Virus record (IMG/VR): IMGVR_UViG_3300042868_004622
Span: 1-37,984 of that record
Direction: 5' to 3' (one strand)
Length of the DNA: 37,984 nt
Origin: a virus
Shown here: positions 3,521-37,984 of the stretch, piece after piece
Layout: the number at the start of each line of letters is the position of its first letter
Numbering within the stretch: the stretch's first letter is position 1
The notes under the pieces: model-generated
Told to the model about the DNA's origin: nothing
The model's input: the letters and a program-made list of their open reading frames with translations, nothing else
The model's database searches: none
Position numbers and translations under genes: made by a program

Positions 3521-5206
3521 ATGGACCCTTTCACCTTAGCCCTTCTCGGCAGTTCCGCCGCCAGCGGTCTGGGGTCCGTTCTAGGCGCGCGCGCTTCGGG
3601 ACAGGCGGCGCAAGCACAATCCCAAGCTGCTATGTTGAGCGCGGTTCTTCAGGCGCAGGCGCAGGAGCGCGCAAGACAAGACATCCTTCAGGGCAGGGCC
3701 AGCGGCGAGCAGGCTCTTAGATCCGCCGCCCAGCCAACATTGGAGGCTCTACGCGCTTCGACCGCGCGCGCTGAAGAGGTCCGGCGGGCGGGCGCTGGCG
3801 AGGCTGCGGCCGAGCTGGAGCGTGGGCGCGCGGCGTCTATCTCTCCGTTATTGGCGGCGCAGCAGGCGCAGCAGCAAGCGCTTTTAGGCGCTACCGGCGG
3901 TCAGTTGGAAGCGCTTTACGGCGGCGCTGGGCTGGGAATGCAGGCGCTTCGTCAGGCTGAGCTTGGACAGCTCGGCGCGTTACGAGGCGGAGCGGGTCAA
4001 GCTGCCGGCGCAATTCAGCGCGGTATGGGGCAGGGCGCAGGCGCGCTCACGGGGGCAGAACGCCGCGCGGCGGGAGAACTGACCGCAGGCGAGATGGGCG
4101 GCCTTGGCGCACTAGGCGGCGCGTTTGGTATGCAAGCCGGCTATCAACAGCCATATGTGTCGACAGGCGCAGGCGCGCAGAATCAGCTTGCGGCGCTTTA
4201 CGGCGTCGGCGGCGATCCTAACGCGCCGGGCTATGGCTCGTTTATGCGTCAGCCGACGCTCGAAGAACTTCAGATGGACCCCGGCTACGCGTTCCGCATG
4301 GCTGAAGGCCAGCGGGCTATGCAGTCGACGCTTGGCTCGTCGGGTATGCGCGGCTCGGGCGCAGCGCTGAAAGCTGCGACTCGCTACGGGCAGGAAGCTG
4401 GCAGTCAGGAATATCAGAACGCCTACGCGCGGTTCATGGCAAACCGTCAAGCGGCACTGTCCGGCCTTCAGGGCCTTGCGGGCTCGGGTCAGGGTGCGGC
4501 AAATGTAATGACGCAGGCTGCGGGTGGTCTTGGCACCGGAGCGGCAGGGCTTATGCAGACCGGCGCTACAGGCCGTGCGGGGCTTGCGTCCCAGACCGGT
4601 GCTAATCTCGCGAACATCTATGGAACCGGCGCACAGAACCTTGCGAACATCTATGGTGCGCAAGGCCAGAATGTCGCGGGTGTGCTGGGTCAGACGGGCG
4701 CTAATGTCGCTAATATTGCAGGCACGACAGGTCAGAACGTCGCGGGTGCGTTGGGTCAGACAGGCACTAACCTTGCGAATGTCTATGGCACGACGGGCCA
4801 GAACGTCAGTAATATTCAGGGCGCGACCGGGCAGAACCTTGCCGGGCTACGCGGCGCGCTCGGCACGGGGCTGTCGGCGGACATTCTTGGCAGCGGCCAG
4901 AACATCGCGAATGTCTACTCTGGACTTGGCACCGGTCTAGCCAATCTTGCCACGGGCGCGGCCGTCCCGCTCGCTAATCTGGCGACCGGCGGCGGCCAAG
5001 CGCTCGCGACCGGGCTGGAGAACGCCGCGCAGGCCCGCGCGTCCGGCTATATGGGCGGCGCGTCGGCGCTGTCTCAGGCGCTGGGCAATGTTGGGCAGAA
5101 CGCGCTGGCCTATAGCATGATGGACCGCATGTATGGTCAAGCGCGGCCGGCGACGGCGCAACCGTTCAACCGAAATTATGGTATGGGTTACGGCCCGCAG
5201 CTTTGA
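3521..5206 (+). CDS. DNA ejection / internal virion protein with hendecad repeats
   Basis: 561 residues, very rich in Ala, Gly and Gln. AGGAG at 3510-3514 lies at good distance from ATG 3521. The N-terminus is a small hydrophobic Gly/Ala/Ser segment (TLALLGSSAASGLGSVLG), then a long helical Ala/Gln/Arg stretch. Residues ~245-320 hold the motif DPGYAFRMAEGQRAM with SGAALKAATRYGQE, which I associate with podovirus DNA transfer proteins. Residues 358-445 are eight 11-residue repeats (for example QTGANVANIAG), with degenerate copies to about 500. The position fits the first of the three P22 ejection proteins (gp7, gp20, gp16), which leave the virion to form a conduit across the cell envelope. Sequence identity to P22 gp7 is not claimed. 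Confidence 0.65.
   Translation: MDPFTLALLGSSAASGLGSVLGARASGQAAQAQSQAAMLSAVLQAQAQERARQDILQGRASGEQALRSAAQPTLEALRASTARAEEVRRAGAGEAAAELERGRAASISPLLAAQQAQQQALLGATGGQLEALYGGAGLGMQALRQAELGQLGALRGGAGQAAGAIQRGMGQGAGALTGAERRAAGELTAGEMGGLGALGGAFGMQAGYQQPYVSTGAGAQNQLAALYGVGGDPNAPGYGSFMRQPTLEELQMDPGYAFRMAEGQRAMQSTLGSSGMRGSGAALKAATRYGQEAGSQEYQNAYARFMANRQAALSGLQGLAGSGQGAANVMTQAAGGLGTGAAGLMQTGATGRAGLASQTGANLANIYGTGAQNLANIYGAQGQNVAGVLGQTGANVANIAGTTGQNVAGALGQTGTNLANVYGTTGQNVSNIQGATGQNLAGLRGALGTGLSADILGSGQNIANVYSGLGTGLANLATGAAVPLANLATGGGQALATGLENAAQARASGYMGGASALSQALGNVGQNALAYSMMDRMYGQARPATAQPFNRNYGMGYGPQL
4592..4855 (+). repeat. 33-bp (11-residue) repeats in the ejection-protein gene
   Basis: Eight consecutive 33-bp units encode residues 358-445: QTGANLANIYG, TGAQNLANIYG, AQGQNVAGVLG, QTGANVANIAG, TTGQNVAGALG, QTGTNLANVYG, TTGQNVSNIQG, ATGQNLAGLRG. 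Invariant or near-invariant positions are Gly at 3 and 11, Asn at 5 and hydrophobic residues at 6, 9 and 10. The same period continues more loosely downstream (GSGQNIANVYS, GLGTGLANLAT, GAAVPLANLAT). Confidence 0.85.
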
Positions 5207-5216
5207 GGTCTGACTA

Positions 5217-6851
5217 ATGGCCGTTCGATATGACATTGCGTCTATGGTGCCCCAAATGAGTGGCGGCGGCATAGATCCGCTTAACATGATGGCTCAGTTG
5301 CGTCAGCAAGAATACCAGCAGGCGCAGCTTGCGCGTATGGCGCAGAGCATGGACGTGCAGGATCTTCAGGCGCAGATTGCCGCGCAGCGCGAGCTTCGCC
5401 AAGCCGAAGCAGCACAGCGTCAGGCGGGACTATATGGCGCGCAGCAGCAGGAAGCGGAGCAGAAAATACAGGCCGGCAAGATCGACCTTTATAAGAATAT
5501 GTTCCAGAATTTCGTCAACGACCAAAAGTCGCTCGATAGTTTTGTGGCTATGATGGAGCGCGACTTTCCGCAGGGCGTCGCAGCGTTCAAAGGCAAGACT
5601 TATTCGGACGATTGGAAACAGGGGCTTTTGAAGCCTGAAGGCGACTATATGGAAGCCGGCGGCGAAGTATATCAGAAAACCGCGCGAGGACTTAGGCCCG
5701 CACCTATCATCCAGCCCGAAGCCATCCCCGGCCCGCGTCAGGACATGGCGACGGCGCTTATTAAAGAGCGCGAAGGGTTTATTGAGAAGCCGAAATACGA
5801 TGTGAACGCCTATCGTGCCGGGTATGGTAGCGACACCGTGACGTTGCCGGACGGCACTGTCCAGAAGGTGACGCCCGGTATGCGCGTGTCGCCTGAGGAT
5901 GCTGAACGCGATCTTCAGCGGCGTATTCAGACCGAGTTTGTCCCGAAGGCTGCGGCCAAAGTCGGCGAAGAAGTTTGGTCTACGCTGCCTGAGAATACGC
6001 GCGCGGCGCTGACTTCGGTCGCATATAACTACGGCACGGTCCCCAGCCGTATCGTCCCGGCTGTGCAGTCCGGCAACCCTGAGACTATCGCGCGGGCTAT
6101 CGAGAGTCTGGCCGGCGATAACAAGGGTATCAACGCCGGGCGACGTATGCAGGAAGCTAATATCGCTCGCGGCACGGGTATGCCCGGCTCGCGCGCGGTG
6201 CCGGCTTTTGCCGCTGGCGGCGCGCCGTCGTTCATGGGCGGCCCCGAGATCACGCCGCCGATCAATATGATGGCCCCGCCGGCTGCACCTATGAACGCGA
6301 TGGCTGCGCCGGCTATGCCGACGCCGCCTGCGCCGCAGCCAGCTCAGCCGATCACGGTCGGCACCAAGACGCAGGTCAAAGGCCAGAGCAACGTCGAAAC
6401 GACGCTCGGTAAGATGATGGACAAATACAACAAGCTCGATCAGTTGGAGGCTATCCCCAGCTCTTCGCGCGGCGCGCTGTCCAACATCGCCGCTTATGCG
6501 GCTGGCACGACTGTCGGGCAGGAAGTCGAGAAGGCCCGCGCAACGCCGGCTCAGCAGCAGCGTAACGAGTTAAAGGCGCTTCGTCGGTCGCTTCTGAAAG
6601 ACATCATGTCTGCTACCGGCGCATCCGCCAAAGAACTCGACTCTAATTTTGAGTTGAAAAGTATGCTGGAGTCGTTGTCTGACGAGACTATGGACATTGA
6701 TTCCGTCCGTCGTATTATCGCTGATCTTTCAGCGCGCTACGGCCGTGGCGGTGTCTCTGCGCCAGAAGAAGCGGCTCCTGCGCCGGCTGCGCCGGCCGCT
6801 GCGGCAGGGCCGCAGGTCATTGATTTCAGCCAGCTTCCCAAGAGGCGCTAA
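5217..6851 (+). CDS. Ejection protein with embedded GH24-type lysozyme domain
   Basis: 544 residues. Residues 1-110 are Gln/Ala-rich helix (QQEYQQAQLARMAQSMDVQD). Residues ~175-318 resemble T4-type lysozyme (GH24): ATALIKEREGF with the candidate catalytic Glu186, then YDVNAYRAGYGSDT giving Asp195 and Thr207, matching the Glu-Asp-Thr triad order. It continues with NTRAALTSVAYNYG and the helical end of such domains. Residues 325-370 are a Pro/Ala/Met linker, followed by a helical segment and a Pro/Ala tail. The gene sits second in the ejection trio. The domain would cut peptidoglycan locally during DNA entry, unlike the separate endolysin at 8679. The TAA overlaps the next ATG by one base. Confidence 0.75.
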   Translation: MAVRYDIASMVPQMSGGGIDPLNMMAQLRQQEYQQAQLARMAQSMDVQDLQAQIAAQRELRQAEAAQRQAGLYGAQQQEAEQKIQAGKIDLYKNMFQNFVNDQKSLDSFVAMMERDFPQGVAAFKGKTYSDDWKQGLLKPEGDYMEAGGEVYQKTARGLRPAPIIQPEAIPGPRQDMATALIKEREGFIEKPKYDVNAYRAGYGSDTVTLPDGTVQKVTPGMRVSPEDAERDLQRRIQTEFVPKAAAKVGEEVWSTLPENTRAALTSVAYNYGTVPSRIVPAVQSGNPETIARAIESLAGDNKGINAGRRMQEANIARGTGMPGSRAVPAFAAGGAPSFMGGPEITPPINMMAPPAAPMNAMAAPAMPTPPAPQPAQPITVGTKTQVKGQSNVETTLGKMMDKYNKLDQLEAIPSSSRGALSNIAAYAAGTTVGQEVEKARATPAQQQRNELKALRRSLLKDIMSATGASAKELDSNFELKSMLESLSDETMDIDSVRRIIADLSARYGRGGVSAPEEAAPAPAAPAAAAGPQVIDFSQLPKRR

Positions 6852-8682: not shown

Positions 8683-9320
8683 ATTTGGCCGTCTTCTTCG
8701 ACGAGGTCCGCAACAGCCTGTTTGGTGGCAGGCTGACGCAGGATCAGGTCGTCGGGATGGAGAACATCATCAACTACCGCGACGACAACTATCGCGGCGT
8801 CACGGACGACCAGCTCGCCTATATGCTCGCCACGGTCAAGTGGGAGACGGCGCACACGATGCAGCCTATCAAGGAGTATGGCTCGCAGGCGTATCTGAAA
8901 TCGAAGCCTTATTACCCCTATTACGGGCGCGGGCTTGTCCAGTTGACGTGGAAGGCCAACTATGAGCGTTACAGTATCGCCGCCACGCCGGACAAGGCGC
9001 TGGAGTGGCCAACATCGCTGTTCGTGATGTTCGACGGCATGACCAAGGGTATTTTTACAGGCAAGAAATTATCCGACTATATTGCAGACGGCCGACGCGA
9101 CTACGTGAACGCGCGCCGTATCATCAACGGCACCGACCGCGCCAAAGAGATCGCGGCCATAGCGGACGACTATCGCGACGCTATCATCAAGGCTCAAGAC
9201 GCCGTCGAGCCGCCCCCACCTTCAGACGATCTGCAAGCCCGTTTCGACGCCATGCTTATTGTGGCTCTCCAAACCAACCCCCAAGTTCAGGAGTTGGTTC
9301 GGCAACTCAAAGAGGACTAG
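8679..9320 (+). CDS. Endolysin, GH19 chitinase-like muramidase
   Basis: 213 residues. It has the GH19 hallmarks: AYMLATVKWETAHTMQPIKE with candidate catalytic Glu56 and Glu66, then YYPYYGRGLVQLTWKANY (residues ~78-95), the substrate-groove motif of this family. GH19 endolysins cleave the peptidoglycan glycan strand. No signal peptide is visible, so release depends on a holin. Residues ~175-213 (PPPPSDDLQARFDAMLIVAL onward) are a linker and a helical tail, perhaps for oligomerisation. The start lies in the ATGA overlap with the preceding membrane-protein gene. Confidence 0.85.
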   Translation: MNLAVFFDEVRNSLFGGRLTQDQVVGMENIINYRDDNYRGVTDDQLAYMLATVKWETAHTMQPIKEYGSQAYLKSKPYYPYYGRGLVQLTWKANYERYSIAATPDKALEWPTSLFVMFDGMTKGIFTGKKLSDYIADGRRDYVNARRIINGTDRAKEIAAIADDYRDAIIKAQDAVEPPPPSDDLQARFDAMLIVALQTNPQVQELVRQLKED

Positions 9321-12906: not shown

Positions 12907-13392
12907 ATGATCGACGCAGAAACGTTACGCAGTCTGTTGGACTATGACCCTGCGACCGGCGTATTTACTTGGCGCGTGGCAACATCATACAGAATTAAGA
13001 TAGGTGACATTGCTGGTTGGGGTAACAGTGAAGGCTATCAGTATATCACTATATTAAAACGTAAATACGGGGCGCATAGATTGGCGTGGGTATATGTTTA
13101 TGGTGATTGGCCTCTACCACATCTTTGTGTGGACCACATTAATAATGTTAGAACCGATAACCGAATATGTAATCTTCGGCTGGCAACTCACAGCCAAAAT
13201 AACGTTAATCGACCAAACCATAGAGGCGATATGCCGAGAGGTGTTCACAGATATAATAATAAATTTGTGGCGAAGATAAGAATAAAAGGAAAAACAACAA
13301 GTTTAGGCAGTTATGTAACTGCCGAAGAAGCGCACGCTGCATACTGCGAGGCGGCGCAAAAAGAATTCGGTGCGTATTATCGCCCCGAATAA
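12907..13392 (+). CDS. Homing endonuclease HNH-AP2 (copy 1)
   Basis: 161 residues. The N-terminal helix LRSLLDYDPATGVFTWRV is shared with two other genes here. The HNH nuclease core is HRLAWVYVYGDWP then VDHINNVRTDNR (76-86) and NLRLATHSQNN. A C-terminal AP2-type DNA-binding fold (RGVHRYNNKFVAKIRIKGKT, LGSYVTAEEAHAAY) follows. Such proteins nick or cut a target in phages lacking them and spread by repair. Base 13201-13260 has 24 G+C of 60, far below neighbouring phage genes, a sign of foreign origin. It begins one base after the exonuclease stop and 19 bases separate it from the next gene, so it rides on the host operon without breaking a gene. Confidence 0.85.
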   Translation: MIDAETLRSLLDYDPATGVFTWRVATSYRIKIGDIAGWGNSEGYQYITILKRKYGAHRLAWVYVYGDWPLPHLCVDHINNVRTDNRICNLRLATHSQNNVNRPNHRGDMPRGVHRYNNKFVAKIRIKGKTTSLGSYVTAEEAHAAYCEAAQKEFGAYYRPE

Positions 13393-17161: not shown

Positions 17162-17659
17162 ATGCTGACGCAAGCGCGGTTAAGAGAGCTGTTGCATTAC
17201 GATGAAAAAACAGGTGTGTTTACATGGAAAGTTAAGAAAGGCGGTCGAGCCGTTGCGGGGCAGCGTGCGGGGGCCAGAGATTATTATGGCTATATTGTTA
17301 TTCGTCTGGATGGTGTGCTTTATAAGGCGCATCGTCTGGCGTGGCTTTATGAATCTGGTTCTTGGCCGTTAAAGAATTTAGACCACATAAATCGAGATAA
17401 AAGTGATAACCGGCTGAAAAATTTACGGTTGGCCGGGCAATCGTTGAATATGCACAATGCCAAACGAACACCTACCAAAAGCGGCGTTGTGGGCGTAGTA
17501 TGGGATTCTTGCCGCAAGAAATGGGTTGCCAGCATAAAAATTAATTACGCGACTATTTTTCTAGGGCGGTTCGACAAAAAAGAAGACGCTATAAGAGCGC
17601 GTAAATCCGCGCACAAAAAGATAATGGCTGTGCTGGAGACACCGCATGACACTCTTTGA
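17162..17659 (+). CDS. Homing endonuclease HNH-AP2 (copy 2)
   Basis: 165 residues, preceded by GGAGCGGGGTC. It has the same plan as copies 1 and 3: helix RLRELLHYDEKTGVFTWKV, HRLAW (57-61), LDHINRDKSDNR (73-84) with NLRLAGQSLN, then an AP2-type domain from ~107 (GVVGVVWDSCRKKWVASIKI, LGRFDKKEDAI). AT-rich codons mark it as transferred. It sits between DNA polymerase and primase-helicase, the classic setting for a free-standing phage homing gene. Its last 14 bases overlap the primase start, so the primase ATG is inside the HNH gene and may depend on its translation. Confidence 0.87.
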   Translation: MLTQARLRELLHYDEKTGVFTWKVKKGGRAVAGQRAGARDYYGYIVIRLDGVLYKAHRLAWLYESGSWPLKNLDHINRDKSDNRLKNLRLAGQSLNMHNAKRTPTKSGVVGVVWDSCRKKWVASIKINYATIFLGRFDKKEDAIRARKSAHKKIMAVLETPHDTL

Positions 17660-19976: not shown

Positions 19977-20127
19977 TTTGACCGAGGCCGTCGAACTTTA
20001 CCTTGACTGGGCGTCCAGTCCGGGGGACGATGAGTGTCCGTCCGAGCTGATCGACCAGCTATGCCACGCACATGAGCAGGCTCGGGCGCTACTGGACGGG
20101 CTCGGCTATGGTTCGGAACCTAATTGA
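19924..20127 (+). CDS. Small acidic protein, unknown
   Basis: 67 residues: MSSPSLNVYPIFLKHLGDLT, EAVELYLDWASSPGDDECPS, then a helical LIDQLCHAHEQARALLDGLG. GGGAAGGATAGGG stands before the ATG. It overlaps the primase-helicase end by 53 bases in another frame, and its own end overlaps the minus-strand gene at 20106 by 22 bases. No domain is recognised. It closes the rightward replication run. Confidence 0.5.
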   Translation: MSSPSLNVYPIFLKHLGDLTEAVELYLDWASSPGDDECPSELIDQLCHAHEQARALLDGLGYGSEPN

Positions 20128-20357
20128 CCTGTTGATCTGCCTCTATGCATTGCAGAGAGAATACGGGTGCGGGTCGCTTCGTCGTGGATCTCATCCAGCG
20201 CCGATTCGAGAGCGAGCCGCAGCCGTGCGGCCTCGTCCAACGCCCCGGTGATGGTCCACTGCGCGCGTTGACGCGCCTCGGAATATCCGGCAAGGTAAGC
20301 CTTCGAAACCTCTTGTTGGAGCGCCTTCAGGCGTTCCTCATACTCGGGTGCGTTCAT
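20106..20357 (-). CDS. Small helical protein, unknown, wedged antisense
   Basis: 83 residues from the ATG at 20357, with GGAGGG about nine bases before it on the minus strand. An in-frame ATG 78 bases further upstream has no such site. The sequence is mostly charged helix (APEYEERLKALQQEVSKAYL, GALDEAARLRLALESALDE) with a basic end. Its 3' end runs 22 bases into the oppositely oriented 19924 gene, and its start codon shares two bases with the ATG of the divergent gene at 20356. It is isolated in orientation between two rightward genes. Confidence 0.5.
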   Translation of the reverse strand: MNAPEYEERLKALQQEVSKAYLAGYSEARQRAQWTITGALDEAARLRLALESALDEIHDEATRTRILSAMHRGRSTGQLGSEP

Positions 20358-20679
20358 GCCAAAGCCCTCCGGCCGGATTGAATACATGCGGCAGGCGCCC
20401 GCGTCCAGCGACCCCATCGCGGATTTTCTGGGCAAGTCTCCCGAGCAGCAGGCGTTCTGGGAGCGCGCGCGGGCGTTCCAGCAGGCGCAGGATTATAGCG
20501 GGCTTGACGACACGGGCGCGGGCGTTGACGCATATCTACGCAAGGAAGAGATGCGGCGGCGGCTGCTGTCCTATTTGCAGCCCTATCTCGAAATGACCGG
20601 GTTCTATCAGAACACCATGGCCCCGCCGCCGCAGAATATGATGCGCGGAATCTTTGGCCTACGTCAGCGCGGTCAATAG
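20356..20679 (+). CDS. Small phage protein, unknown
   Basis: 107 residues if started at ATG 20356; an ATG at 20386 (MRQAPASSDPIADFLGKSPE) is equally possible, and neither has a good ribosome site. The body is helical and charged (QQAFWERARAFQQAQDYSGL, YLRKEEMRRRLLSYLQPYLE), and the end is Met/Pro-rich (NTMAPPPQNMMRGIFGLRQR). No domain is recognised. The ATG at 20356 overlaps the start codon of the minus-strand gene at 20357 in a CATG palindrome. The last 21 bases converge on the MarR-like gene. Confidence 0.5.
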   Translation: MPKPSGRIEYMRQAPASSDPIADFLGKSPEQQAFWERARAFQQAQDYSGLDDTGAGVDAYLRKEEMRRRLLSYLQPYLEMTGFYQNTMAPPPQNMMRGIFGLRQRGQ

Positions 20680-20988
20680 CCCCCGGACTAGCTTCTCACC
20701 TTTTGGGCTTAGATATACTTCAGTCGCTCGCGCGTCGGTTGGCGAGGGTTTCTGTGTCAGCAGGCCCAGCCCTTCGACTCTTACGCCCTTGCTATAGGTG
20801 CGCCCGCGCGAGCCCAGCCGCGAGATGAGATGTGACGCGGCGGCTTTCTCGATCTTCAGCCGGTTTGCATAGGACACGGTCCCCTCGCCCGGATACATCG
20901 CCACCGTCAGAATAAATTCCATCTGTGCGGAAGTCATGTAGGGGCTCATTTTGCGGAATATTTTTACTAGTCTGTGTATATTTTCCAT
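20659..20988 (-). CDS. MarR-like winged-helix protein
   Basis: 109 residues from the ATG at 20988 (MENIHRLVKIFRKMSPYMTS), with AAAGG upstream. The body follows a winged-helix plan: AQMEFILTVAMYPGEGTVSY, ANRLKIEKAAASHLISRLG as turn and recognition helix, then wing RTYSKGVRVEGLGLLTQKPS, and LSPKGEKLVRGLLTAL, the C-terminal helix start common in MarR relatives. It is probably a phage transcription regulator, possibly acting on the repeats in 23759-24310. No dimerisation or ligand features can be judged. It lies at the far end of the leftward early block, behind a terminator-like hairpin, so it may have its own promoter. Confidence 0.6.
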   Translation of the reverse strand: MENIHRLVKIFRKMSPYMTSAQMEFILTVAMYPGEGTVSYANRLKIEKAAASHLISRLGSRGRTYSKGVRVEGLGLLTQKPSPTDARATEVYLSPKGEKLVRGLLTALT

Positions 20989-21002
20989 TAGACTACCTTT
21001 CA

Positions 21003-21034
21003 GGGAAAGAAAACGCCCGGTTTTTATGCCGGGC
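21003..21034 (-). terminator. Leftward intrinsic terminator
   Basis: On the minus strand GCCCGG, loop CATAAAAA, CCGGGC (21034-21015), then G and TTTTCTTT. It lies between the stop of the 21054 gene and the start of the MarR-like gene, so it should end or attenuate the leftward early message before the regulator. Confidence 0.7.
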
Positions 21035-21053
21035 AGTTGGGGAGAAAACGCGG

Positions 21054-21260
21054 CTAGATATTGCATGTTCCGTCACTGACGTAAAGCACGTCGAGACGGC
21101 GCACGATTTCCTGTTCGGTCATTATAGGATGCTCTGGCGCGGATGGCTCCACAGTGCGCCAGAAAGCCCATAGGGGCGGGTTTACCTGATAGGCCGGTAT
21201 ATCCCTAGGCAAGTCAGGAATCACGGCCTGTAGGGCCTCGTATTGTTCCTCGAAGGTCAT
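21054..21260 (-). CDS. Small phage protein, unknown
   Basis: 68 residues: MTFEEQYEALQAVIPDLPRD, IPAYQVNPPLWAFWRTVEPS, then MTEQEIVRRLDVLYVSDGTC. No domain is recognised. Its ATG overlaps the stop of the 16-codon ORF just upstream (ATGA), and a GGGGGT stretch inside that ORF may serve as ribosome site. A terminator follows its stop by about 20 bases. Confidence 0.5.
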   Translation of the reverse strand: MTFEEQYEALQAVIPDLPRDIPAYQVNPPLWAFWRTVEPSAPEHPIMTEQEIVRRLDVLYVSDGTCNI

Positions 21261-21307
21261 TTTACCCCCAGTAGTATTTCGATCAGAACAGCGATTAATA
21301 TTGCCAT
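21257..21307 (-). CDS. 16-residue hydrophobic peptide
   Basis: Minus-strand ATG at 21307 gives MAILIAVLIEILLGVK and a TGA that overlaps the next ATG. A GAGGAAAG stretch lies 9-16 bases upstream. Nearly all residues are aliphatic with a single Glu and terminal Lys, so it could insert in a membrane. It could also be only a leader that delivers ribosomes to the following gene. Too short for family assignment. Confidence 0.35.
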   Translation of the reverse strand: MAILIAVLIEILLGVK

Positions 21308-21311
21308 GAGA

Positions 21312-21548
21312 CTATCTTTCCTCATAGGTGCGAACTCCCCGTAGCACGGCGGCGTGCGTGCGGCGCATGACGCGCCCGATGGCGGGATAGGACGCCTTCA
21401 GTTCAGTCCGCGCCCGCCACATGATCCGCTGGCGGATCGCGCACCTCCACATCATCCGGTCGTGGTTTATCAGCACACCCACGGTCGTTCCGTTCGCTTT
21501 TGCTTCTTCCTCTACGATCCGCATTATCTTTTGGTCTATCTCTTCCAC
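21312..21548 (-). CDS. DnaA domain IV-like DNA-binding protein, GTG start
   Basis: 78 residues from GTG at 21548, with AAGGAG six bases upstream, which decides the start. After a charged helix (EEIDQKIMRIVEEEAKANGT) the second half reads RQRIMWRARTELKASYPAIG then RVMRRTHAAVLRGVRTYEER. This parallels the C-terminal DNA-binding domain of DnaA (LGRxFGxRDHTTVxHA), with basic HTH residues and a signature-like THAAVLRGV. No AAA+ domain is present. It could bind origin sites in phage or host DNA, modulating replication initiation. It overlaps the upstream gene by 146 bases. Confidence 0.55.
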   Translation of the reverse strand: MEEIDQKIMRIVEEEAKANGTTVGVLINHDRMMWRCAIRQRIMWRARTELKASYPAIGRVMRRTHAAVLRGVRTYEER

Positions 21549-21717
21549 TGAAATCTCCTTCGATTGCGAACGTCAGCGCCCGTGCGGCCACGAATAGCGC
21601 CCGATCGTCCGCTTTTGGCAGGTAAATCTGGCCCCATGGCAAGCCGTCAGCGCCGAATAGCGTCAGCGTTTTGCGCTCGTTCTGCCATGTTACTTTGGTA
21701 AGGTAGACGCGTCGCAT
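21403..21717 (-). CDS. Small phage protein with long overlap tail
   Basis: 104 residues. The first ~57 (MRRVYLTKVTWQNERKTLTL, GADGLPWGQIYLPKADDRAL) look like a compact beta-rich protein. The rest (GRDRPKDNADRRGRSKSERN onward) is low-complexity charged sequence read out of frame through the DnaA-like gene. Either the stop was lost and the tail is tolerated, or the tail is disordered by design. No domain is recognised. Its start overlaps the preceding 58-codon gene by 28 bases. Confidence 0.45.
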   Translation of the reverse strand: MRRVYLTKVTWQNERKTLTLFGADGLPWGQIYLPKADDRALFVAARALTFAIEGDFSGRDRPKDNADRRGRSKSERNDRGCADKPRPDDVEVRDPPADHVAGAD

Positions 21718-21866
21718 TTGCGTGCCCCCAGTTCGGCCCGTATCAGGTCTTTGCGTAGTTTATCAGTCTCGTTGTCCAGCATGACCTGCAAAGCGCCCTC
21801 TGATAGCACCTTAAGCGCCGCCCGGTAGGGCGCGTAGTCTTCCCATAGTTCTTTCATGTAGCCCAT
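21690..21866 (-). CDS. 58-residue helical protein, unknown
   Basis: Minus-strand ATG at 21866: MGYMKELWEDYAPYRAALKV, LSEGALQVMLDNETDKLRKD, LIRAELGARKCDASTLPK. GGGAGCTAGGA just upstream, overlapping the previous stop region, is the ribosome site; a second ATG three codons in is also possible. Amphipathic helical throughout, no recognised family. It starts four bases after the stop of the TM peptide at 21870 and overlaps the next gene by 28 bases, as expected in this packed early block. Confidence 0.5.
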   Translation of the reverse strand: MGYMKELWEDYAPYRAALKVLSEGALQVMLDNETDKLRKDLIRAELGARKCDASTLPK

Positions 21867-21869
21867 GTC

Positions 21870-21956
21870 CTAGCTCCCTATGATGTATGACGCGATAAGG
21901 ATTAGCGCGGACGCGGCTACAGCCGCGCCCAATATGATGGCCTCAATCTTCCGCAT
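21870..21956 (-). CDS. 28-residue membrane peptide
   Basis: Minus-strand ATG at 21956 gives MRKIEAIILGAAVAASALIL then IASYIIGS and TAG. After a short basic start it is a single hydrophobic helix. It overlaps the stop of the 97-residue gene by 14 bases. Single-span peptides of this sort are frequent in phage early regions, and function is unknown. Confidence 0.45.
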   Translation of the reverse strand: MRKIEAIILGAAVAASALILIASYIIGS

Positions 21957-22236
21957 GATTCAGACAAGCCTCTACAAGTTTGTCGTCCTTATACAGGGCC
22001 GCTTCGATAAGGGGATACAGGGGATGCTTCGTGTCAAGCATAAGCCCCTTCTCGCCTAGCGCGAGCGGGTCTAATTCAATCGCGTGTATGCACCAGTCGC
22101 CGATCGTCCACCGTGGCCAGCCGCTGTCGGGATCGGGCGGTTCTAGCTGGAAGTTTACGTCGGCGACGCCGCTGGCGACGATGTTGCAGCCGGGTAAGAC
22201 TTGCAGCGAGTCAAAGTAATATTCGATATTAGCCAT
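21943..22236 (-). CDS. Small phage protein, unknown
   Basis: 97 residues from the ATG at 22236 (MANIEYYFDSLQVLPGCNIV), chosen over an in-frame upstream start because GGAGAAAT precedes it. Trp-rich middle (PPDPDSGWPRWTIGDWCIHA), then helical end (PLIEAALYKDDKLVEACLNH). No domain is recognised. It overlaps the preceding 54-codon gene by eight bases. Confidence 0.5.
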   Translation of the reverse strand: MANIEYYFDSLQVLPGCNIVASGVADVNFQLEPPDPDSGWPRWTIGDWCIHAIELDPLALGEKGLMLDTKHPLYPLIEAALYKDDKLVEACLNHAED

Positions 22237-22393
22237 TGGACCATTTCTCCATCCAGTATTTTTCCGACTCTTCGTCGTAAAGATCATTCACTTGCGCCCG
22301 CAATAGCTCTAGCAGCGGCGGGCGCGGCTCTAGCGTTTCGAGATGGTCTCGCAGCGCCTCGAAGACATCCAGATCCAGTTCAATGGTTAGCAT
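22229..22393 (-). CDS. 54-residue acidic helical protein
   Basis: Minus-strand ATG at 22393: MLTIELDLDVFEALRDHLET, LEPRPPLLELLRAQVNDLYD, EESEKYWMEKWSNG. It is strongly acidic and helical. GAAAGAG-type purines from the preceding gene's end lie upstream. It overlaps the zinc-ribbon-like gene (14 bases) and the 97-residue gene (8 bases). A small acidic early protein could be a decoy or inhibitor of a host DNA-binding protein, but nothing in the sequence shows this. Confidence 0.45.
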   Translation of the reverse strand: MLTIELDLDVFEALRDHLETLEPRPPLLELLRAQVNDLYDEESEKYWMEKWSNG

Positions 22394-22562
22394 TTTTCAA
22401 CTCTCTTTCCGGTTTTTGGCCGCTGGGACGGCAAGAGCGCCCATCGGCGCGATCGTGCGGGATTGGCTGTTTCGCCCAGTATGAAAGCCCGCAATGGGGG
22501 CATTTCCATCTATGGCCAGCTAACGATTGCGCGCGAAAACCCTTAGTTTTAGTGATCGACAT
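22380..22562 (-). CDS. Small zinc-ribbon-like protein
   Basis: 60 residues from the ATG at 22562, which has GGAGAG at good distance; an in-frame ATG at 22604 lies in the previous gene. KCPHCGLSYW gives a CPHC knuckle, and a third Cys follows in GRSCRPSG; with a nearby His this could bind one zinc ion. Basic C-terminal end. Possibly nucleic-acid binding, no family named. Confidence 0.45.
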   Translation of the reverse strand: MSITKTKGFRAQSLAGHRWKCPHCGLSYWAKQPIPHDRADGRSCRPSGQKPERELKNANH

Positions 22563-22716
22563 CGTGGGTCTCTCCGTATGATTGCAGCATTTCGAGCCTC
22601 TCAAGCTCGCGATAGAGCGCGGCGGCGCGGTCTACGTCGCCGGTCCATAGGGCGTCCTGAATCTCGCGTCGCACGCGCATGATTTCGGACCATAGGGGGC
22701 GCGGGTTAGTCTGCAT
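22549..22716 (-). CDS. 55-residue charged helical protein
   Basis: Minus-strand ATG at 22716: MQTNPRPLWSEIMRVRREIQ, DALWTGDVDRAAALYRELER, LEMLQSYGETHDVDH. It looks like a helical hairpin with alternating Arg and Glu. Overlaps of 11 bases upstream and 14 bases downstream place it in the same packed message. No domain is recognised. Confidence 0.45.
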   Translation of the reverse strand: MQTNPRPLWSEIMRVRREIQDALWTGDVDRAAALYRELERLEMLQSYGETHDVDH

Positions 22717-22966
22717 TGGCCGCGAGCAAATGTTGGGCTATCTCGCGCCAGTTAACATCTTGGAGGAACGCGAGCGCATAGTCGCGCGCCAGTCCTTCGG
22801 GCGCGGTTTGTTCTATAATATCTTCGGCATACTCCCTAAGAAGCGGCGCGAGTTCGAATTGATTCATCCCGCACCAGCTCGTCTCGTTAATGTCCATTCC
22901 GTCGAACATCTCAAGATTGACGCGCCATGTTGCGTAGTTAGTCCATCCATTATAGCTCATTTTCAT
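22706..22966 (-). CDS. DUF7249-like small phage protein
   Basis: 86 residues; AGGAGAC directly precedes the ATG, and a second ATG two codons in (MSYNGWTNYATWRVNLEMFD) has better spacing. The NYATWRVNLEMFDG opening is a recurrent phage motif that I recall as DUF7249; the name is from memory. The rest is acidic and helical (LLREYAEDIIEQTAPEGLAR). Its function is not known. It follows the 158-residue gene after a 56-base gap containing a GC-rich imperfect hairpin (about 22991-23011). Confidence 0.55.
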   Translation of the reverse strand: MKMSYNGWTNYATWRVNLEMFDGMDINETSWCGMNQFELAPLLREYAEDIIEQTAPEGLARDYALAFLQDVNWREIAQHLLAANAD

Positions 22967-23022
22967 GTCTCCTATGTGAGTTTGTTATGATAGCGCCGCG
23001 CATGGCGCGACGCCAGTAATTA

Positions 23023-23499
23023 TCAGACAAGGCGTCCGTCAGCGTAAAACTCATAAGCGTTGGCTTCTAAACTGTCGTCTATACCGGCATCCGATAGCTG
23101 GTATCCTATATCGTCGCGCCATGCGCAAAACCCCGCATCCAGCGCCATGTCGAATGCGTGTTTGGCGTTGCCCGTTTTTTCAAATTGGTCGTAGAATGTA
23201 GACCACAGGTCATAATCCAAACAGAAGCCTGTAGGATTGTGTTCCCGGTCGAAGTCGCGCAGCTTACGCCCGCGAAAATGGGAGTTGTCGGCGTCGGTCG
23301 AATATGAATAGGGGCTATACGCGCCGATCTCCCATTTCGTCAGGCGAACGCCGAAATGCGCGCAGAAGGCTTTGACGCTCGCGAGGCTTTCATCGTGCCA
23401 GCTATACTCAAAACCGGCGCGCCACCAATTACGCGCGCGCTCCTTGGCGTCATCTGATAGTTCATCGAATGTGTAGATTTCTACGGTTGCCGTTCTCAT
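23023..23499 (-). CDS. Conserved early phage protein, unknown function
   Basis: 158 residues from the ATG at 23499 (MRTATVEIYTFDELSDDAKE), eight bases after AAAGGA; the ATG at 23505 is too close to it. The family pattern YTFDELSDDAKERARNWW, HFGVRLTKWEIGAYSPYSYS and DNSHFRGRKLRDFDRE is shared with hypothetical proteins of many phages, and I know no proven role. It is acidic with many aromatic residues, and is the largest gene of the leftward early block, near its promoter-proximal end. This would fit a host-modifying or anti-defence protein, an inference from position and charge. Confidence 0.6.
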   Translation of the reverse strand: MRTATVEIYTFDELSDDAKERARNWWRAGFEYSWHDESLASVKAFCAHFGVRLTKWEIGAYSPYSYSTDADNSHFRGRKLRDFDREHNPTGFCLDYDLWSTFYDQFEKTGNAKHAFDMALDAGFCAWRDDIGYQLSDAGIDDSLEANAYEFYADGRLV

Positions 23500-23520
23500 T
23501 GTCATGTTCCTTTGTTACAG

Positions 23521-23604
23521 TTAGGCGGAAAGAGTCGCGACGATTGCGCCAGCAATGGCGAAGCAGGCGGCGAAAGTTTGGATTGCGTCGATATAGGTGG
23601 GCAT
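23521..23604 (-). CDS. 27-residue membrane peptide
   Basis: Minus-strand ATG at 23604: MPTYIDAIQTFAACFAIAGA then IVATLSA. AAGGAC lies at correct distance upstream. It is one TM helix with a short polar start. It sits between the 47-residue and 158-residue genes. A longer frame reading through it from 23745 is rejected, because the 47-residue gene occupies that DNA in another frame with a better ribosome site. Confidence 0.5.
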   Translation of the reverse strand: MPTYIDAIQTFAACFAIAGAIVATLSA

Positions 23605-23614
23605 TGATTTGTCC

Positions 23615-23758
23615 TTATATTGAGATTGTAGAACGCCACGCTTCGACGACACGACCGCCGATTGCAGCGGCTTTCGCGTCAGCAGCAGCTCTATCTTTGA
23701 ACCGCTCAACAGTGCGCCAGTGTTTGCCGTCATACTTTTGGACAACGTAAATGGTCAT
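23615..23758 (-). CDS. 47-residue basic protein, first early leftward gene
   Basis: Minus-strand ATG at 23758: MTIYVVQKYDGKHWRTVERF, KDRAAADAKAAAIGGRVVEA, WRSTISI. AAGGAG ten bases upstream is one of the strongest ribosome sites in the block. The pattern (strand, turn, helix, strand) resembles small DNA- or protein-binding folds seen in phages, but no family is named. It is the promoter-proximal gene of the leftward early message and so should be made first. Confidence 0.55.
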   Translation of the reverse strand: MTIYVVQKYDGKHWRTVERFKDRAAADAKAAAIGGRVVEAWRSTISI

Positions 23759-23787
23759 TGGACTGTCTCCTTGTGTTCGATGCTCAC

Positions 23788-23816
23788 AAGATAGCGCGAT
23801 TCGACGGCGATTGCAA
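23788..23816 (-). promoter_or_regulatory. Candidate leftward early promoter
   Basis: On the minus strand TTGCAA (23816-23811), a 17-base spacer and TATCTT (23793-23788). Each box matches four of six sigma-70 consensus bases. It would start transcription about 25 bases before the ATG at 23758. No better pair was found in this direction. Confidence 0.4.
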
Positions 23817-24108
23817 TAAGATTTTTGATTAGGTCATCATTTATCTTGTTTTTGTCTGTGACTTAGGCGCGGGAAACACGAGCGATTACCGGGCGTTATA
23901 CTATTTGAGCTGTTTTTATATATTAAAGGTCAAAAAAATATAAATGTTTACATACGTATACATACAGTAAAAATGTATAGCGACTTAAAACGTCTTTGCT
24001 ATATCGCCTAATAGCATAACCCACCAAAATGGTAGACTATGCGCGCGGTCGTCTAGGCGCGCGTTATTTGCCTTCACGCAAAAAGTCTGACTCGACTTGA
24101 AACAGACT

Positions 24109-24135
24109 CGCCTAAATGACCTAAACCGCCTAACC
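24109..24135 (+). repeat. 9-bp tandem (iteron-like) repeats
   Basis: CGCCTAAAT, GACCTAAAC and CGCCTAACC follow one another without gaps (starts 24109, 24118, 24127). CGCCTAA occurs again at 24005, TTAGGTC at 23829 and TTAGGCG at 23863 (inverted copies). A period of 9 is near a helical turn, so a protein could occupy one face of the DNA. Confidence 0.7.
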
Positions 24136-24167
24136 CTTTCTGTTTACGTAAACGCTATGACTTGAGC

Positions 24168-24214
24168 GTTGACAGACGTTGACATTAAGCTGTTGACATT
24201 GAGCAGTAGACATT
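24168..24214 (+). repeat. GTTGACATT direct repeats
   Basis: GTTGACAGA (24168), GTTGACATT (24178), GTTGACATT (24192), GTAGACATT (24206). The last three are spaced exactly 14 bases. Each contains a TTGACA-like box, but no matching -10 box lies 16-18 bases downstream, so a protein-binding array is more likely than a row of promoters. Confidence 0.7.
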
Positions 24215-24297
24215 CAGGGGCGGGGGGCTGGGCCTTGGGATCTCCTTTAAGAAATACGCAGGGGCTGCACAAAATTTTTTAAATTTTATTTTTTCAT

Positions 24298-24306
24298 GCT
24301 ATAACA
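24298..24306 (+). promoter_or_regulatory. Candidate extended -10 box before the terminase operon
   Basis: TGCTATAAC at 24298-24306 has the TGn plus TATAAC form of an extended -10 element. A start about seven bases after it falls at or next to ATG 24311, which has no ribosome site, so a leaderless message is possible. No -35 box is seen, only an A/T tract. Confidence 0.35.
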
Positions 24307-24310
24307 AACC

Positions 24311-24817
24311 ATGTTTCACTCACTCCCCTATGAGCCGCGCCAGATCGCCGCGACGGAAGCGGTGCTGGAGCGCATATACGAAGCTGCTCGTAAGGGCCTG
24401 CGCGGCGACTCCATGGCGCTGGCGGCCGGGCTGACGCCGCATGAATACCGGACGCTTGTGCAACTCGACCCGATAGCGGAGTATGCCGAAACAAAGGGGC
24501 GCGCTGACGGAGAGGCGGAACTGGCCGACGTGATGATGAAGGCCGCGCGGAGCGGCGACACCAAAGCGGCCATGGACATGCTGAAGTTCGCGCATAAGTG
24601 GACGGCCCCGCAATCAATTCAGGTTCAGGTAGAGCAAAAAATTAGTATTTTGGCGGCTTTAGAAGAAGCTACCGCTAGAGTTATTGAAGGTTCTGTGTTA
24701 GATACAGTTGAGGCCGCCGACGCGGGAACGTCAGACGGCCTCTTGGACCACCGTAATAGGGACGGTAGCTATGCACAGGATTACGCACGACAGACTGAAA
24801 AGTCTACTGGCTTATGA
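24311..24817 (+). CDS. Small terminase subunit
   Basis: 168 residues. LERIYEAARKGLRGDSMALA then AGLTPHEYRTLVQLDPIAEY is the helix-turn-helix that binds the packaging site. EGEAELADVMMKAARSGDTK-like sequence (here DGEAELADVMMKAARSGDTK) and AAMDMLKFAHKWTAPQSIQV continue the helical core. It lies upstream of the large subunit with an HNH gene between. The C-terminal ~45 residues after VIEGSVLDTVEAA look unlike the GC-rich N-terminal part in codon use, and the last 47 bases overlap the HNH gene, so the natural end may have been altered by that insertion. No Shine-Dalgarno precedes the ATG. Confidence 0.75.
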   Translation: MFHSLPYEPRQIAATEAVLERIYEAARKGLRGDSMALAAGLTPHEYRTLVQLDPIAEYAETKGRADGEAELADVMMKAARSGDTKAAMDMLKFAHKWTAPQSIQVQVEQKISILAALEEATARVIEGSVLDTVEAADAGTSDGLLDHRNRDGSYAQDYARQTEKSTGL

Positions 24818-25259
24818 CCCGGACACCGGGGTTTTTACCCGCGACGGCAAACCGGCGGGCTACGCCCATCACACCGGCTACCGATATGTTGGCGTAGACG
24901 GCGAAACGATAATAGAGCATCGTTTAGCGTGGTTTTACGTATATGGAGTTTGGCCTTCCGCCGATCTGGACCACATAAACCGCGTTCGCTCCGATAACAG
25001 AATCGCTAATCTCAGAGAGGTTTCCCGCTCTGAAAACTGTCAGAATCAACCGATAAGACGCTCAAATAAAAGCGGTCGGACCGGCGTTTACTACCACAAA
25101 GTATCTGGTAAATGGGCAGCGACTATAAACGTAAACAGACGGCAGATACATTTAGGTATATACGACACTGCGGAAGAGGCAATATCAGTGAGGCGCAAAG
25201 CCGAGCTGGAGCACTACCCATATAGGGCTAAAGATGCAGACTCCGATATACGATCCTGA
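24771..25259 (+). CDS. Homing endonuclease HNH-AP2 (copy 3)
   Basis: 162 residues from ATG 24771 (MHRITHDRLKSLLAYDPDTG); an upstream in-frame ATG at 24708 adds only terminase-overlapping sequence. HNH core: HRLAWFYVYGVWP, DLDHINRVRSDNR (65-77), ANLREVSRSENCQNQ. AP2-type end: RTGVYYHKVSGKWAATINVN, LGIYDTAEEAISVRRKAELE. It lies between the terminase subunits, overlapping the small one by 47 bases and the large one by 26. Invading a packaging operon puts the target in an essential conserved gene, the usual strategy of such elements. It is paralogous to copies at 12907 and 17162. Confidence 0.87.
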   Translation: MHRITHDRLKSLLAYDPDTGVFTRDGKPAGYAHHTGYRYVGVDGETIIEHRLAWFYVYGVWPSADLDHINRVRSDNRIANLREVSRSENCQNQPIRRSNKSGRTGVYYHKVSGKWAATINVNRRQIHLGIYDTAEEAISVRRKAELEHYPYRAKDADSDIRS

Positions 25260-35902: not shown

Positions 35903-36437
35903 CTGGCCGTCGGGCGAGCTGTTCCGCACGCTTGGCCCGACCGGAAATTTCGTAGGTGAGCGCCCGGTTCTGCTGGATGATTCGACCTATTTTCGAGACC
36001 CGCAGACCAACGTCTCCTACGGCATAAAGTTCATCAATCAGCAGCAGTATAACGGCATTGCTGTCAAGACCGTGACCAGCACCTATCCGCAGGTTATTTT
36101 TGTCAACAATACGTTCCCCGACATTGAAATGTATATCTACCCAAGACCCCTGCGGCTATTGGAGTGGCATTTCATTTCGGTTGAGAAGCTGACCCAGCCT
36201 GCCCAATTGGCTACGACGCTGACATTCCCGCCGGGCTACCTGCGGGCGTTCCGCTATAATCTTGCGTGCGAGATCGCGCCGGAGTTCGGCGTCGAACCTT
36301 CCGCGCAGGTGCAGCGGATTGCTATGTATAGCAAGCGCAATCTGAAGCGCATCAATAACCCCGACGACATCATGGCGCTGCCTTATAGCATTGTCGGCAC
36401 ACGTCAGCGCTTTAACATCTACGCAGGGAACTACTAG
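35724..36437 (+). CDS. P22 gp4-like head-tail connector / tail accessory protein
   Basis: 237 residues (P22 gp4 has 166). TTTAGDQINGALRLLGVLAE, GETPSAETSQDALTALNQMI, DSWNTERLSVFSTQDQVFNW give the helical bundle common to this connector family. FINQQQYNGIAVKTVTSTYP, EMYIYPRPLRLLEWHF and FPPGYLRAFRYNLACEIAPE follow. In P22 gp4 binds below the portal and receives gp10, the gene next in line here apart from the HNH insert. Its last four bases overlap the end of the convergent HNH gene. Confidence 0.85.
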   Translation: MTTTAGDQINGALRLLGVLAEGETPSAETSQDALTALNQMIDSWNTERLSVFSTQDQVFNWPSGELFRTLGPTGNFVGERPVLLDDSTYFRDPQTNVSYGIKFINQQQYNGIAVKTVTSTYPQVIFVNNTFPDIEMYIYPRPLRLLEWHFISVEKLTQPAQLATTLTFPPGYLRAFRYNLACEIAPEFGVEPSAQVQRIAMYSKRNLKRINNPDDIMALPYSIVGTRQRFNIYAGNY

Positions 36438-36973
36438 GTATGTTGCATTTTAGCATACTTACTACGCGGCCCTCGTCTTTGTCCTTTAGCAAGATGTTGC
36501 CGTTCTTCACTGTATATCTCATGGGCATGAAGGATATTTTCTTGGTGCGTAACAAGCTCAAGATTTTCCAGCCTGTTATCGGCTCGGTCTAAGTTCTTAT
36601 GGTTTATCTCCAGCCGACCGGGAATAGGGCCAATAAATGCTTCCCAAAGCATACGATGTATAGACAAGCATCTATACACGCCGTTTTTGCACAGCCGAAC
36701 GACAACATAATGCTTCAGCAGCCCAGTTTTTACGGGCCTATAATTTACGTCCCCCGCCCATGTTTTGCCGTGCTTAATAGACATGACAGTGGTGACGCTT
36801 GTGTTCAAAAACGCCGCAATGTCTTTCAATTTGGCCCCATTAGCCAATCGACGCTTAGCTTCCGCAATTTGATCTGCGGAAAACAATTTGCCGCGCGCTA
36901 TGCGGCGCACGTTGCCAAGATTGCTAATTTCGTAAAGTCCTTCATAATTAAGAACTGGTCGCCATTCTTCCAT
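36434..36973 (-). CDS. NUMOD4-HNH homing endonuclease, opposite strand
   Basis: 179 residues, with AAGGAG before the ATG on the minus strand. MEEWRPVLNYEGLYEISNLG then NVRRIARGKLFSAD is the NUMOD4 DNA-binding motif. Residues ~35-70 (AEAKRRLANGAKLKDIAAFL, TSVTTVMSIKHGKTWA) are a helix-turn-helix of resolvase type. The HNH core is SIHRMLWEAFIGPIPGRLEI then NHKNLDRADNRLENLELVTH. G+C is low (36781-36840 is 28/60). It lies between the gp4-like and gp10-like genes, antisense to both, so it must use its own promoter in the AT-rich 36974-37029 stretch or a late antisense one. Confidence 0.87.
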   Translation of the reverse strand: MEEWRPVLNYEGLYEISNLGNVRRIARGKLFSADQIAEAKRRLANGAKLKDIAAFLNTSVTTVMSIKHGKTWAGDVNYRPVKTGLLKHYVVVRLCKNGVYRCLSIHRMLWEAFIGPIPGRLEINHKNLDRADNRLENLELVTHQENILHAHEIYSEERQHLAKGQRRGPRSKYAKMQHT

Positions 36974-37029: not shown

Positions 37030-37984
37030 ATGAAGACGCCGGTCCTCGGCTCCAGCTATGTCCTGCGCAGCCCTAATGCGGCTGACAGCCGCATGGTCAA
37101 TCTCTATCCTGAGATTGTGCCAGAAGGGGGCAAAGAGGCCGCTTGGCTTCAGCGAGCGCCGGGGCTCCGTCAGCTCGCCGTGTTTCCGACCGGCCCTGTG
37201 CGGGGGCTTTGGCAGTATGGCGACTATGGTTACGCCGTCGCGGGCACCAAGCTATACCGTGTAGACACGGATTGGAGTTACCACGAACTCGGCACAGTAG
37301 CCGGCGCAGGCCCGGTCAACATGGTCGATAACGGCACGCAGCTATTCATCGCTGCGGGCGCTAACGGCTACATCTACAACAACACCAACGTAACGCTGAG
37401 CTGCAATACGACCAACGGTTCGCCCACTGTTACGACCGCTGATACATCTCTTATCTGGGTCGGCCTCCCTGTCACGGGCTCGGGCATTCCGGCCAGCACG
37501 ACGGTCTCCAGTATTACGGACGGAACGACTTTTGTTTTGTCGGCCAACGCTACAGCCACGGCGACGACGGATCTGACGTTCTCGCCGCTCTTCAGCGACA
37601 TCACGGACCCGGATTTTCCGGGCGCGATTGGCGTCGGGTTTATTGACGGCTATTTTGTATTCAACGAGCCCAACAGCCAGAAATTCTGGGTGACTGAGGC
37701 CTATAACGGCCTGTCCATCGACGCGCTGGACTTCGCCAGCGCGGAAGGCTCGCCGGACAATCTGGTCACGCTGATCGTTGACCATCGAGAAATCTGGCTG
37801 TTTGGCGTCAACACTGTCGAGGTCTGGTATAACGCCGGGCTCCCTGACTTTCCGCTTGCGCGCATCCAAGGCGCGTTTAATGAAATAGGTTGCCTCGCCG
37901 CCTATTCGGTCGCCAAACTCGACAATGGTCTGTTCTGGCTCGGGCGCGACGCGCGCGGTAACGGTATCGTCTACAGGTCCAAAG
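37030..37984 (+). CDS. P22 gp10-like tail hub / packaged-DNA stabilisation protein, 5' part
   Basis: It starts at ATG 37030 behind a strong GGAGGT and is open to the last base, continuing in the gene part at 1-957. The opening, KTPVLGSSYVLRSPNADSRM then VNLYPEIVPEGGKEAAWLQR and APGLRQL, is characteristic of the P22 gp10-like/DNA-stabilising family. WQYGDYGYAVAGTKLYRV, VDNGTQLFIAAGANGYIY and VDHREIWLFGVNTVEVWYNA show the repeated beta-blade motif. The middle (~residues 115-190) contains an Ig-like insert (SGIPASTTVSSITDGTTF), which helps explain why the joined product (about 575 residues) is longer than P22 gp10. It closes the head after packaging together with the gp4-like protein. Confidence 0.85.
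   Translation, partial: MKTPVLGSSYVLRSPNAADSRMVNLYPEIVPEGGKEAAWLQRAPGLRQLAVFPTGPVRGLWQYGDYGYAVAGTKLYRVDTDWSYHELGTVAGAGPVNMVDNGTQLFIAAGANGYIYNNTNVTLSCNTTNGSPTVTTADTSLIWVGLPVTGSGIPASTTVSSITDGTTFVLSANATATATTDLTFSPLFSDITDPDFPGAIGVGFIDGYFVFNEPNSQKFWVTEAYNGLSIDALDFASAEGSPDNLVTLIVDHREIWLFGVNTVEVWYNAGLPDFPLARIQGAFNEIGCLAAYSVAKLDNGLFWLGRDARGNGIVYRSK
37801..37984. repeat. Right copy of terminal redundancy
   Basis: It corresponds to bases 1-184, identical over the last 127 bases and 50/57 over the first 57. The reading frame of the gp10-like gene is the same in both. Removing one copy leaves a circle of 37,800 bases. Confidence 0.85.

Follow-up and report, generated by a model that had tools for sequence, protein, structure and literature searches.

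The window analysed here is the whole 37,984-base virus record IMGVR_UViG_3300042868_004622 of IMG/VR, whose genes include those for a DNA polymerase, a RepB-type primase and a terminase. The closest relative with an annotation is the podovirus ctNMl277 (MW202483), whose portal and coat are P22-like. Between the primase gene (plus strand, ending at 19976) and the terminase small subunit gene (plus strand, starting at 24311), the window possesses a block of small leftward genes (20106-23758), which an initial annotation had proposed to be a host-takeover or anti-defence island. Judged from its sequence, this block is a true operon of some 15 genes, most of them tiny, which natural selection maintains. 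For comparison, searches with the g3 and g16 proteins brought up close relatives (L002-L019, about 90% nucleotide identity), and a search with the terminase a wider circle; 51 relatives carry at least eight leftward genes in the primase-terminase slot.

The leftward frames lie at the coordinates first assigned to them. The ratio of non-synonymous to synonymous substitution rates (dN/dS) was calculated by the Nei-Gojobori method, each frame being compared with as many as 10 distinct, close IMG/VR homologues of about 90% nucleotide identity. Fourteen of the 16 leftward frames (g2, g3, g5, g6 and g8-g17) have close homologues and dN/dS values of 0.03-0.36, so the frames are conserved rather than showing the ratio near 1 that the initial annotation had set against its own proposal. 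Shadow frames mostly gave values of about 0.7 to 7; two plus-strand shadow frames were low (0.22 and 0.36), yet are disrupted in most relatives. For g1 (23615-23758) and g7 (22380-22562), no close homologues were found in the IMG/VR comparison, and their support comes from context, namely start overlaps and an insert exactly filling a variable slot. At least 16 genes of 16-158 codons had been claimed initially; 14 frames are under selection, g1 and g7 stand by context, and no supported gene is shorter than 22 codons. Where g12 and g13 overlap (146 nt), selection acts on g13 only (0.12 versus 1.90 for g12), and a frame at 22950-23054 was rejected as a gene (1.70).

Upstream of the operon lies an AT-rich divergent control region (23759-24310; 41.5% GC versus 57.2% overall), which separates it from the terminase small subunit gene and beside which the block had been correctly placed. 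In relatives, conserved stretches of this region are interleaved with replaced ones. A sigma-70-like promoter of the leftward operon, TTGCAA-17-TATCTT (23788-23816, minus strand), is kept ahead of the first gene in 12 relatives, whatever that gene is, and in L005, L006 and L007, where an insertion replaced the upstream DNA, a new TTGACG stands at the identical 17-nt spacing. This promoter scores below the threshold of a generic promoter scan, in which no excess was apparent. Searching generically for sigma-70 sites ahead of the first genes revealed only a slight excess (mean best score 7.8 versus 7.3 for shuffled sequence), so the case for it is carried by conservation. Directly behind the -35 of the leftward promoter, L005-L007 also hold an inserted plus-strand gene of 82 aa (3604-3852 in the reverse complement of L005), possibly a regulatory one. 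A TTGTG/CACAA palindrome considered as the operator of the window clade was dropped, being disrupted in L015 and L019.

Of the 617 gene junctions across all the blocks, 291 are overlaps, with 4 and 14 bases the most frequent lengths. An internal junction (22961-23022, minus strand) consists of a GC-rich hairpin followed by TATCATAACAAACTCACATAGGAG (RNA minimum free energy -21 kcal/mol, z -4.3), and these 62 nt stay constant in slot 3 ahead of differing cassettes (c10, c21 and c19). The operon is closed after g15 by an intrinsic terminator (21014-21035, minus strand), GCCCGG-N8-CCGGGC followed by TTTTCTTT, and a GC-hairpin with T-run is retained there in most relatives, with differing sequences. 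Since g16 and g17 lie beyond this terminator, they need read-through or a promoter of their own. The first description of a leftward block holds for the operon itself, but its limits also enclose a plus-strand gene, p18, and the terminator that precedes g16.

As stated initially, most genes in the block are of no known function, encoding small, often acidic proteins with few family matches. The optional first cassette, g1 (47 aa, minus strand like all the genes named g), has a favourable codon score, a Shine-Dalgarno sequence and a match to phrog_15891 (E = 0.002); it is missing in close relatives, where its slot is empty or filled by unrelated genes. The following g2 (23521-23604) encodes a 27-aa hydrophobic peptide with a single transmembrane-like (TM-like) segment, intact in 8 of 8 distinct homologues (dN/dS 0.12; cluster 9, 16 loci). 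Two exchangeable cassettes encode the acidic proteins g3 (23023-23499, 158 aa, net charge -12, dN/dS 0.10), which matches the functionally unannotated phrog_10310 (E = 1.4e-19), and g5 (22706-22960, 84 aa, net -10, dN/dS 0.21). The only named-phage homologue of the g3 family is uan_015 of Pseudomonas phage UAntarctica, which stands amid small same-strand hypothetical genes, a context in line with a putative early accessory role of this family. The first 22 residues of g5 match DUF7249 (PF23907) at 22.8 bits, under the curated cutoff of 27, and its structure model is helical and of moderate confidence (predicted local distance difference test, pLDDT, 76), with no significant PDB match.

Further downstream, g6 (22549-22716, 55 aa, dN/dS 0.05, 19 loci) is followed by g7 (60 aa, basic), which occupies a hypervariable slot. 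The protein is zinc-ribbon-like, as described initially, but neither two metal-binding knuckles nor a curated match was found: it has one CPHC plus a later H/C, and at E<=1 it gave weak zinc-finger matches only, below cutoffs. In L008, an unrelated CPHC/CNDC protein occupies this slot. Next come the acidic g8 (22229-22393, 54 aa, net -9, dN/dS 0.13, 20 loci) and the core gene g9 (21943-22236, 97 aa, net -12, dN/dS 0.11, 26 loci), whose confident structure model (pLDDT 89) has weak matches to uncharacterised phage proteins only and no significant PDB match; PDB sequence searches with g5, g9 and g13 also gave nothing useful. A 28-aa single-TM-like peptide, g10 (21870-21956, dN/dS 0.36, intact in 8 of 8, 17 loci), precedes g11 (21690-21866, 58 aa, dN/dS 0.22, 22 loci) and the 104-codon frame g12 (21403-21717), in which about the first 56 codons, ahead of the g13 start, are selected (0.17), while the 49-codon tail overlapping g13 is not (1.90). 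The operon ends with the DnaA-domain-IV-like g13 (21312-21548, 78 aa, GTG start), the 22-aa single-TM-like peptide g14 (21257-21325, 19 loci), which has a glutamate within its hydrophobic stretch (IEILLGVK), and the acidic g15 (21054-21260, 68 aa, net -7, dN/dS 0.06, 23 loci).

Past the terminator, g16 (20659-20988, 109 aa, dN/dS 0.12) encodes a winged-helix/MarR-like regulator. The MarR-like label is backed by phrog_9665 (transcriptional regulator, E = 1.8e-14), but Pfam MarR_2 (PF12802) scores 15.5 bits, below its cutoff of 27. Convergent with g16 is p18 (20356-20679, plus strand, 107 aa), which is under selection as well (0.06); both are absent from L002. The last gene, g17 (20106-20357, 83 aa, dN/dS 0.13, 19 loci), starts head-to-head with p18. 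The start codons of these two selected genes share one CATG (20355-20358), so that each ribosome-binding site falls within the other gene.

In the 51 relatives, the primase-terminase slot holds 8-20 small leftward genes (mean 12), with a median of 67 aa versus 142 aa for plus-strand genes. The 700 block proteins form 240 clusters, 140 of them singletons, and Pfam recognised about ten families among 144 cluster representatives. Core genes (g6, g8-g11 and g13-g15) recur. Within the window clade, the first gene is g1, c35, c103 or none, the g3 slot holds g3 or c22 plus c16, the g5 slot g5, c21 or c19, and the g7 slot g7, c34, c36, c101 or none; flanks are collinear throughout, and near-identical neighbours hold different cassettes. 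Identifiable larger inserts include DNA methyltransferases, beta-clamp-like proteins (11 loci), RusA-like proteins, DUF7227, GP88 and a phosphoesterase. Such cassette exchange between fixed boundary sequences is what would be expected of genes directed against host targets that vary. A 193-aa beta-clamp-like protein of cluster 16, encoded in L012 at 4866-5447 (plus strand; dnan 57 bits, below cutoff), fills the g3 slot in several relatives.

The initial annotation counted four hydrophobic peptides in the window, where we find three, namely g2, g10 and g14. Peptides of this kind are a general property of the slot: at least one TM-like peptide of <=40 aa is encoded by 50 of 52 blocks (one in 23 blocks, two in 12 and three in 15), and together they form 25 clusters. 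Called micro-open reading frames (micro-ORFs) are TM-like in 89 of 115 cases within blocks (162 kb) versus 1 of 47 elsewhere in the same contigs (501 kb), and mechanically derived frames have the same bias more weakly (85/557 on the coding strand versus 44/869 on the opposite strand). In seven micropeptide families, the ratio of non-synonymous to synonymous differences (pN/pS) is 0.19-0.55 in frame and mostly near or above 1 in other frames; for g14, it is 0.19-0.34 versus mostly >1. Members of the g14 family keep the glutamate inside the hydrophobic stretch and end in LG[VLI]K or similar, and a charged residue buried in a membrane helix would point to a specific host membrane protein as the partner of that helix. 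Ten micropeptide representatives searched against PHROG gave nothing better than 0.04. Two TM-like micropeptides, at 8761-8853 and 7501-7593 of L101, lack annotation in GenBank record MW202483.

The gene g13 has the lowest dN/dS among the leftward genes (0.03). It matches Bac_DnaA_C (PF08299) at E = 2e-6 (28.2 bits, curated cutoff 31.5), and a relative in its cluster does so at E = 1.1e-17. The g13 proteins align with bacterial DnaA domain IV and, unlike bacterial DnaA, lack the AAA+ domain; blocks of related phages often encode such a stand-alone protein. Homologues in relatives retain the box-reading motif of the RDH[ST]T type (GGRDH[ST]T, KRDHST or similar), while in the window clade this DnaA-box-reading motif (RDHTT type) is not present and all members have RRTHAAV. 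In seven loci with a combined 72 kb (group A: L024, L026, L027, L030, L032, L038 and L041), the box core TATCCACA occurs 13 times, in a single orientation and always upstream of leftward genes; 12 of the 13 lie within 60 nt of a start codon, and it is the commonest 8-mer in those segments. Often two boxes 26-27 nt apart flank the -10. Perfect DnaA boxes overlap the -10 in L026, L038, L041, L046 and L101, of which L046 and L101 have theirs in the opposite orientation and a different sequence context, still over the -10. TTWTNCACA is absent from 120 kb of 11 window-clade loci (4.0 expected), the window itself has two DnaA boxes, both outside the block and control region, and no promoter DnaA box is left. 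The window clade has evidently lost both the canonical reading motif and the promoter boxes. Since reader motif and site were gained or lost together, g13 and the boxes are interpreted as autoregulator and operator, and g13 looks more like an operon regulator than a weapon. That g13 serves solely to shut off host replication became a less favoured reading once boxes were found on the operon promoter.

Arrays of 3-5 perfect DnaA boxes are also present in the control regions of L090 (5852-5901), L092 (9278-9327) and L094 (2238-2287), and a perfect DnaA-box array lies near that of L087 (5240-5337). None of these four loci has a g13 homologue, and the arrays are possible origins, operators or DnaA decoys.

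We consider it fairly probable that the block is an accessory or host-takeover operon of a P22-like podovirus, transcribed by polymerase of the host type and likely repressed by its own g13-type protein. Transcription would start at TTGCAA-17-TATCTT, proceed leftward across some 15 small genes that overlap at their ends and stop at the terminator after g15, with core genes recurring and promoter-proximal slots swapping cassettes. Early in infection, small acidic proteins and single-membrane-spanning micropeptides would then bind machines and membrane proteins of the host and reset or inhibit them, while g13 and its relatives, as stand-alone DnaA domain IV proteins, would bind the promoter of their own operon and turn it down. 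The conserved promoter, AT-rich control region, fast turnover and small, often acidic proteins would be hallmarks of such an early module. In the window clade, reader and site would have changed together, and the g13 of the window is predicted to bind the conserved CGCGCTATCTTGTGAGCATCG segment, not TATCCACA. It is also conceivable, though we put it forward tentatively, that a widespread and probably freshwater podovirus lineage combines rapidly replaced single-helix micropeptide weapons with a DnaA-domain-IV governor acting on boxes in its own promoter, reader and operator co-diverging.

Several observations weigh against this explanation. The group A box sits inside a longer repeated element (TAACATATCCACA) that possibly serves another purpose, and the group A loci are related (74-90% nucleotide identity), so their counts are not independent. 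As well, L053, L059 and L064 have the canonical motif yet no boxes at the first gene, and boxes are enriched also in loci without a g13-like gene (30 versus 5.3 expected). TM-like calls were made from hydropathy alone, so membrane insertion is a prediction. Moreover, host DnaA, not the phage protein, could read the boxes. The operon would then be coupled to the host replication initiator or to origin use, with g13-like proteins displacing or mimicking host DnaA, which we regard as possible but doubtful. Perfect boxes at the promoter and the arrays of L087, L090, L092 and L094, all without a g13 homologue, suit this account, while the disappearance of the window-clade boxes along with the change in the g13 helix points to the phage protein as the reader. 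A precedent is phage lambda, in which host DnaA binds sites near the replication promoters (PMC3985674). The relatives of the window resemble lambda in having DnaA boxes adjoining a phage promoter, and differ in that the DnaA-domain-IV protein is phage-encoded, inside the very operon proposed to be controlled. Lambda relies on host DnaA and is not known to encode a DnaA-domain-IV protein of its own.

The island originally proposed was host-takeover or anti-defence in kind; it proves to be a compact, selected operon with high turnover, but searches of Pfam, PHROGs and NCBIfam placed no window gene in a known anti-defence family, no dedicated anti-defence library having been searched. We think it rather unlikely that the majority of cassettes counter restriction, CRISPR or abortive-infection systems, although such a role is plausible for some. 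Extreme turnover, several acidic proteins (net -7 to -12) that are potential DNA mimics, a C5-cytosine methyltransferase in the equivalent slot of MW202483 (PF00145, E = 2.3e-14; phrog_363, E = 1.2e-80) and a phrog_757 methyltransferase match among block representatives, assigned by sequence to cluster 37 (L030, L059 and L086), would fit a dedicated island. However, a methyltransferase occurs in only about 4 of 52 blocks, the other identified inserts (beta-clamp-like, RusA-like) are of replication type, and PADLOC, which lists defence genes, matched the L101 methyltransferase and nothing else. A regulatory or immunity-type region, in which the DnaA-like and MarR-like proteins choose the developmental programme and the small genes are accessory, would account for two DNA-binding proteins, the divergent control region and the promoter boxes of relatives. 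It is improbable, because the annotation of the complete relative MW202483 has neither an integrase nor a CI-type repressor, the majority of the genes do not look DNA-binding, and cassettes turn over more than a switch requires. That the frames arose by chance or that the region is decaying and non-coding, as very short frames and the lack of homologues of g1 and g7 might suggest, deserves hardly any credence: the low ratios, frames intact across relatives and micropeptide families conserved in frame only refute this for 14 of the 16 frames.

The early region of T7, genes 0.3-0.7, consists of small early anti-host genes ahead of the replication genes, and family searches of the block found no homologues of T7 early proteins. 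The window showed no RNA polymerase of phage origin, and host polymerase would therefore, unlike in T7, transcribe throughout. In the early part of the SPO1 genome, the host-takeover module gathers genes that are small for the most part and whose promoters and ribosome-binding sites look strong (PMC6873191); it comprises several operons, with growth inhibition proven for eight products. The block is alike in kind, a resemblance of organisation rather than of demonstrated homology; unlike SPO1, it is one operon and has a wealth of TM micropeptides and a predicted DnaA-type regulation. The podovirus ctNMl277 has the same primase-terminase slot, a DnaA helix-turn-helix gene and small hypothetical genes, and differs in carrying the C5-cytosine methyltransferase and in leaving several micropeptides unannotated.

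Annotation of phage genomes routinely omits genes under its length limit. Here, predicted membrane peptides of 20-40 residues are under selection and gathered in a single operon across a large lineage of environmental phages. The outcome is a short ordered list of candidate host-interaction proteins, and the DnaA-box link makes a concrete claim on how such operons are regulated. If true, a phage regulator family would have been captured from a replication initiator, and its reading helix and site would have changed together.

Relatives of the window terminase were found on contigs of freshwater-type beta/gamma-proteobacterial metagenome-assembled genomes, such as Rhodoferax, which weakly hints at a host of this kind. 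Scans of the whole window for transfer RNAs and Rfam families were empty. The window begins and ends with a 184-bp direct terminal repeat (1-184 and 37801-37984, 96.2% identity), which makes it probable that the record is a complete genome whose ends vary, perhaps owing to strain mixing. Genes resembling HNH-type homing endonucleases, recognised from sequence only, stand between phage genes at 12907-13392, 17162-17659, 24708-25259 and 36434-36973. Finally, a tail-fibre-like protein encoded at 1540-3252 contains near-identical repeated segments (GLTVSAGGAAITGNSSVTGTLGVSSTLTASN).

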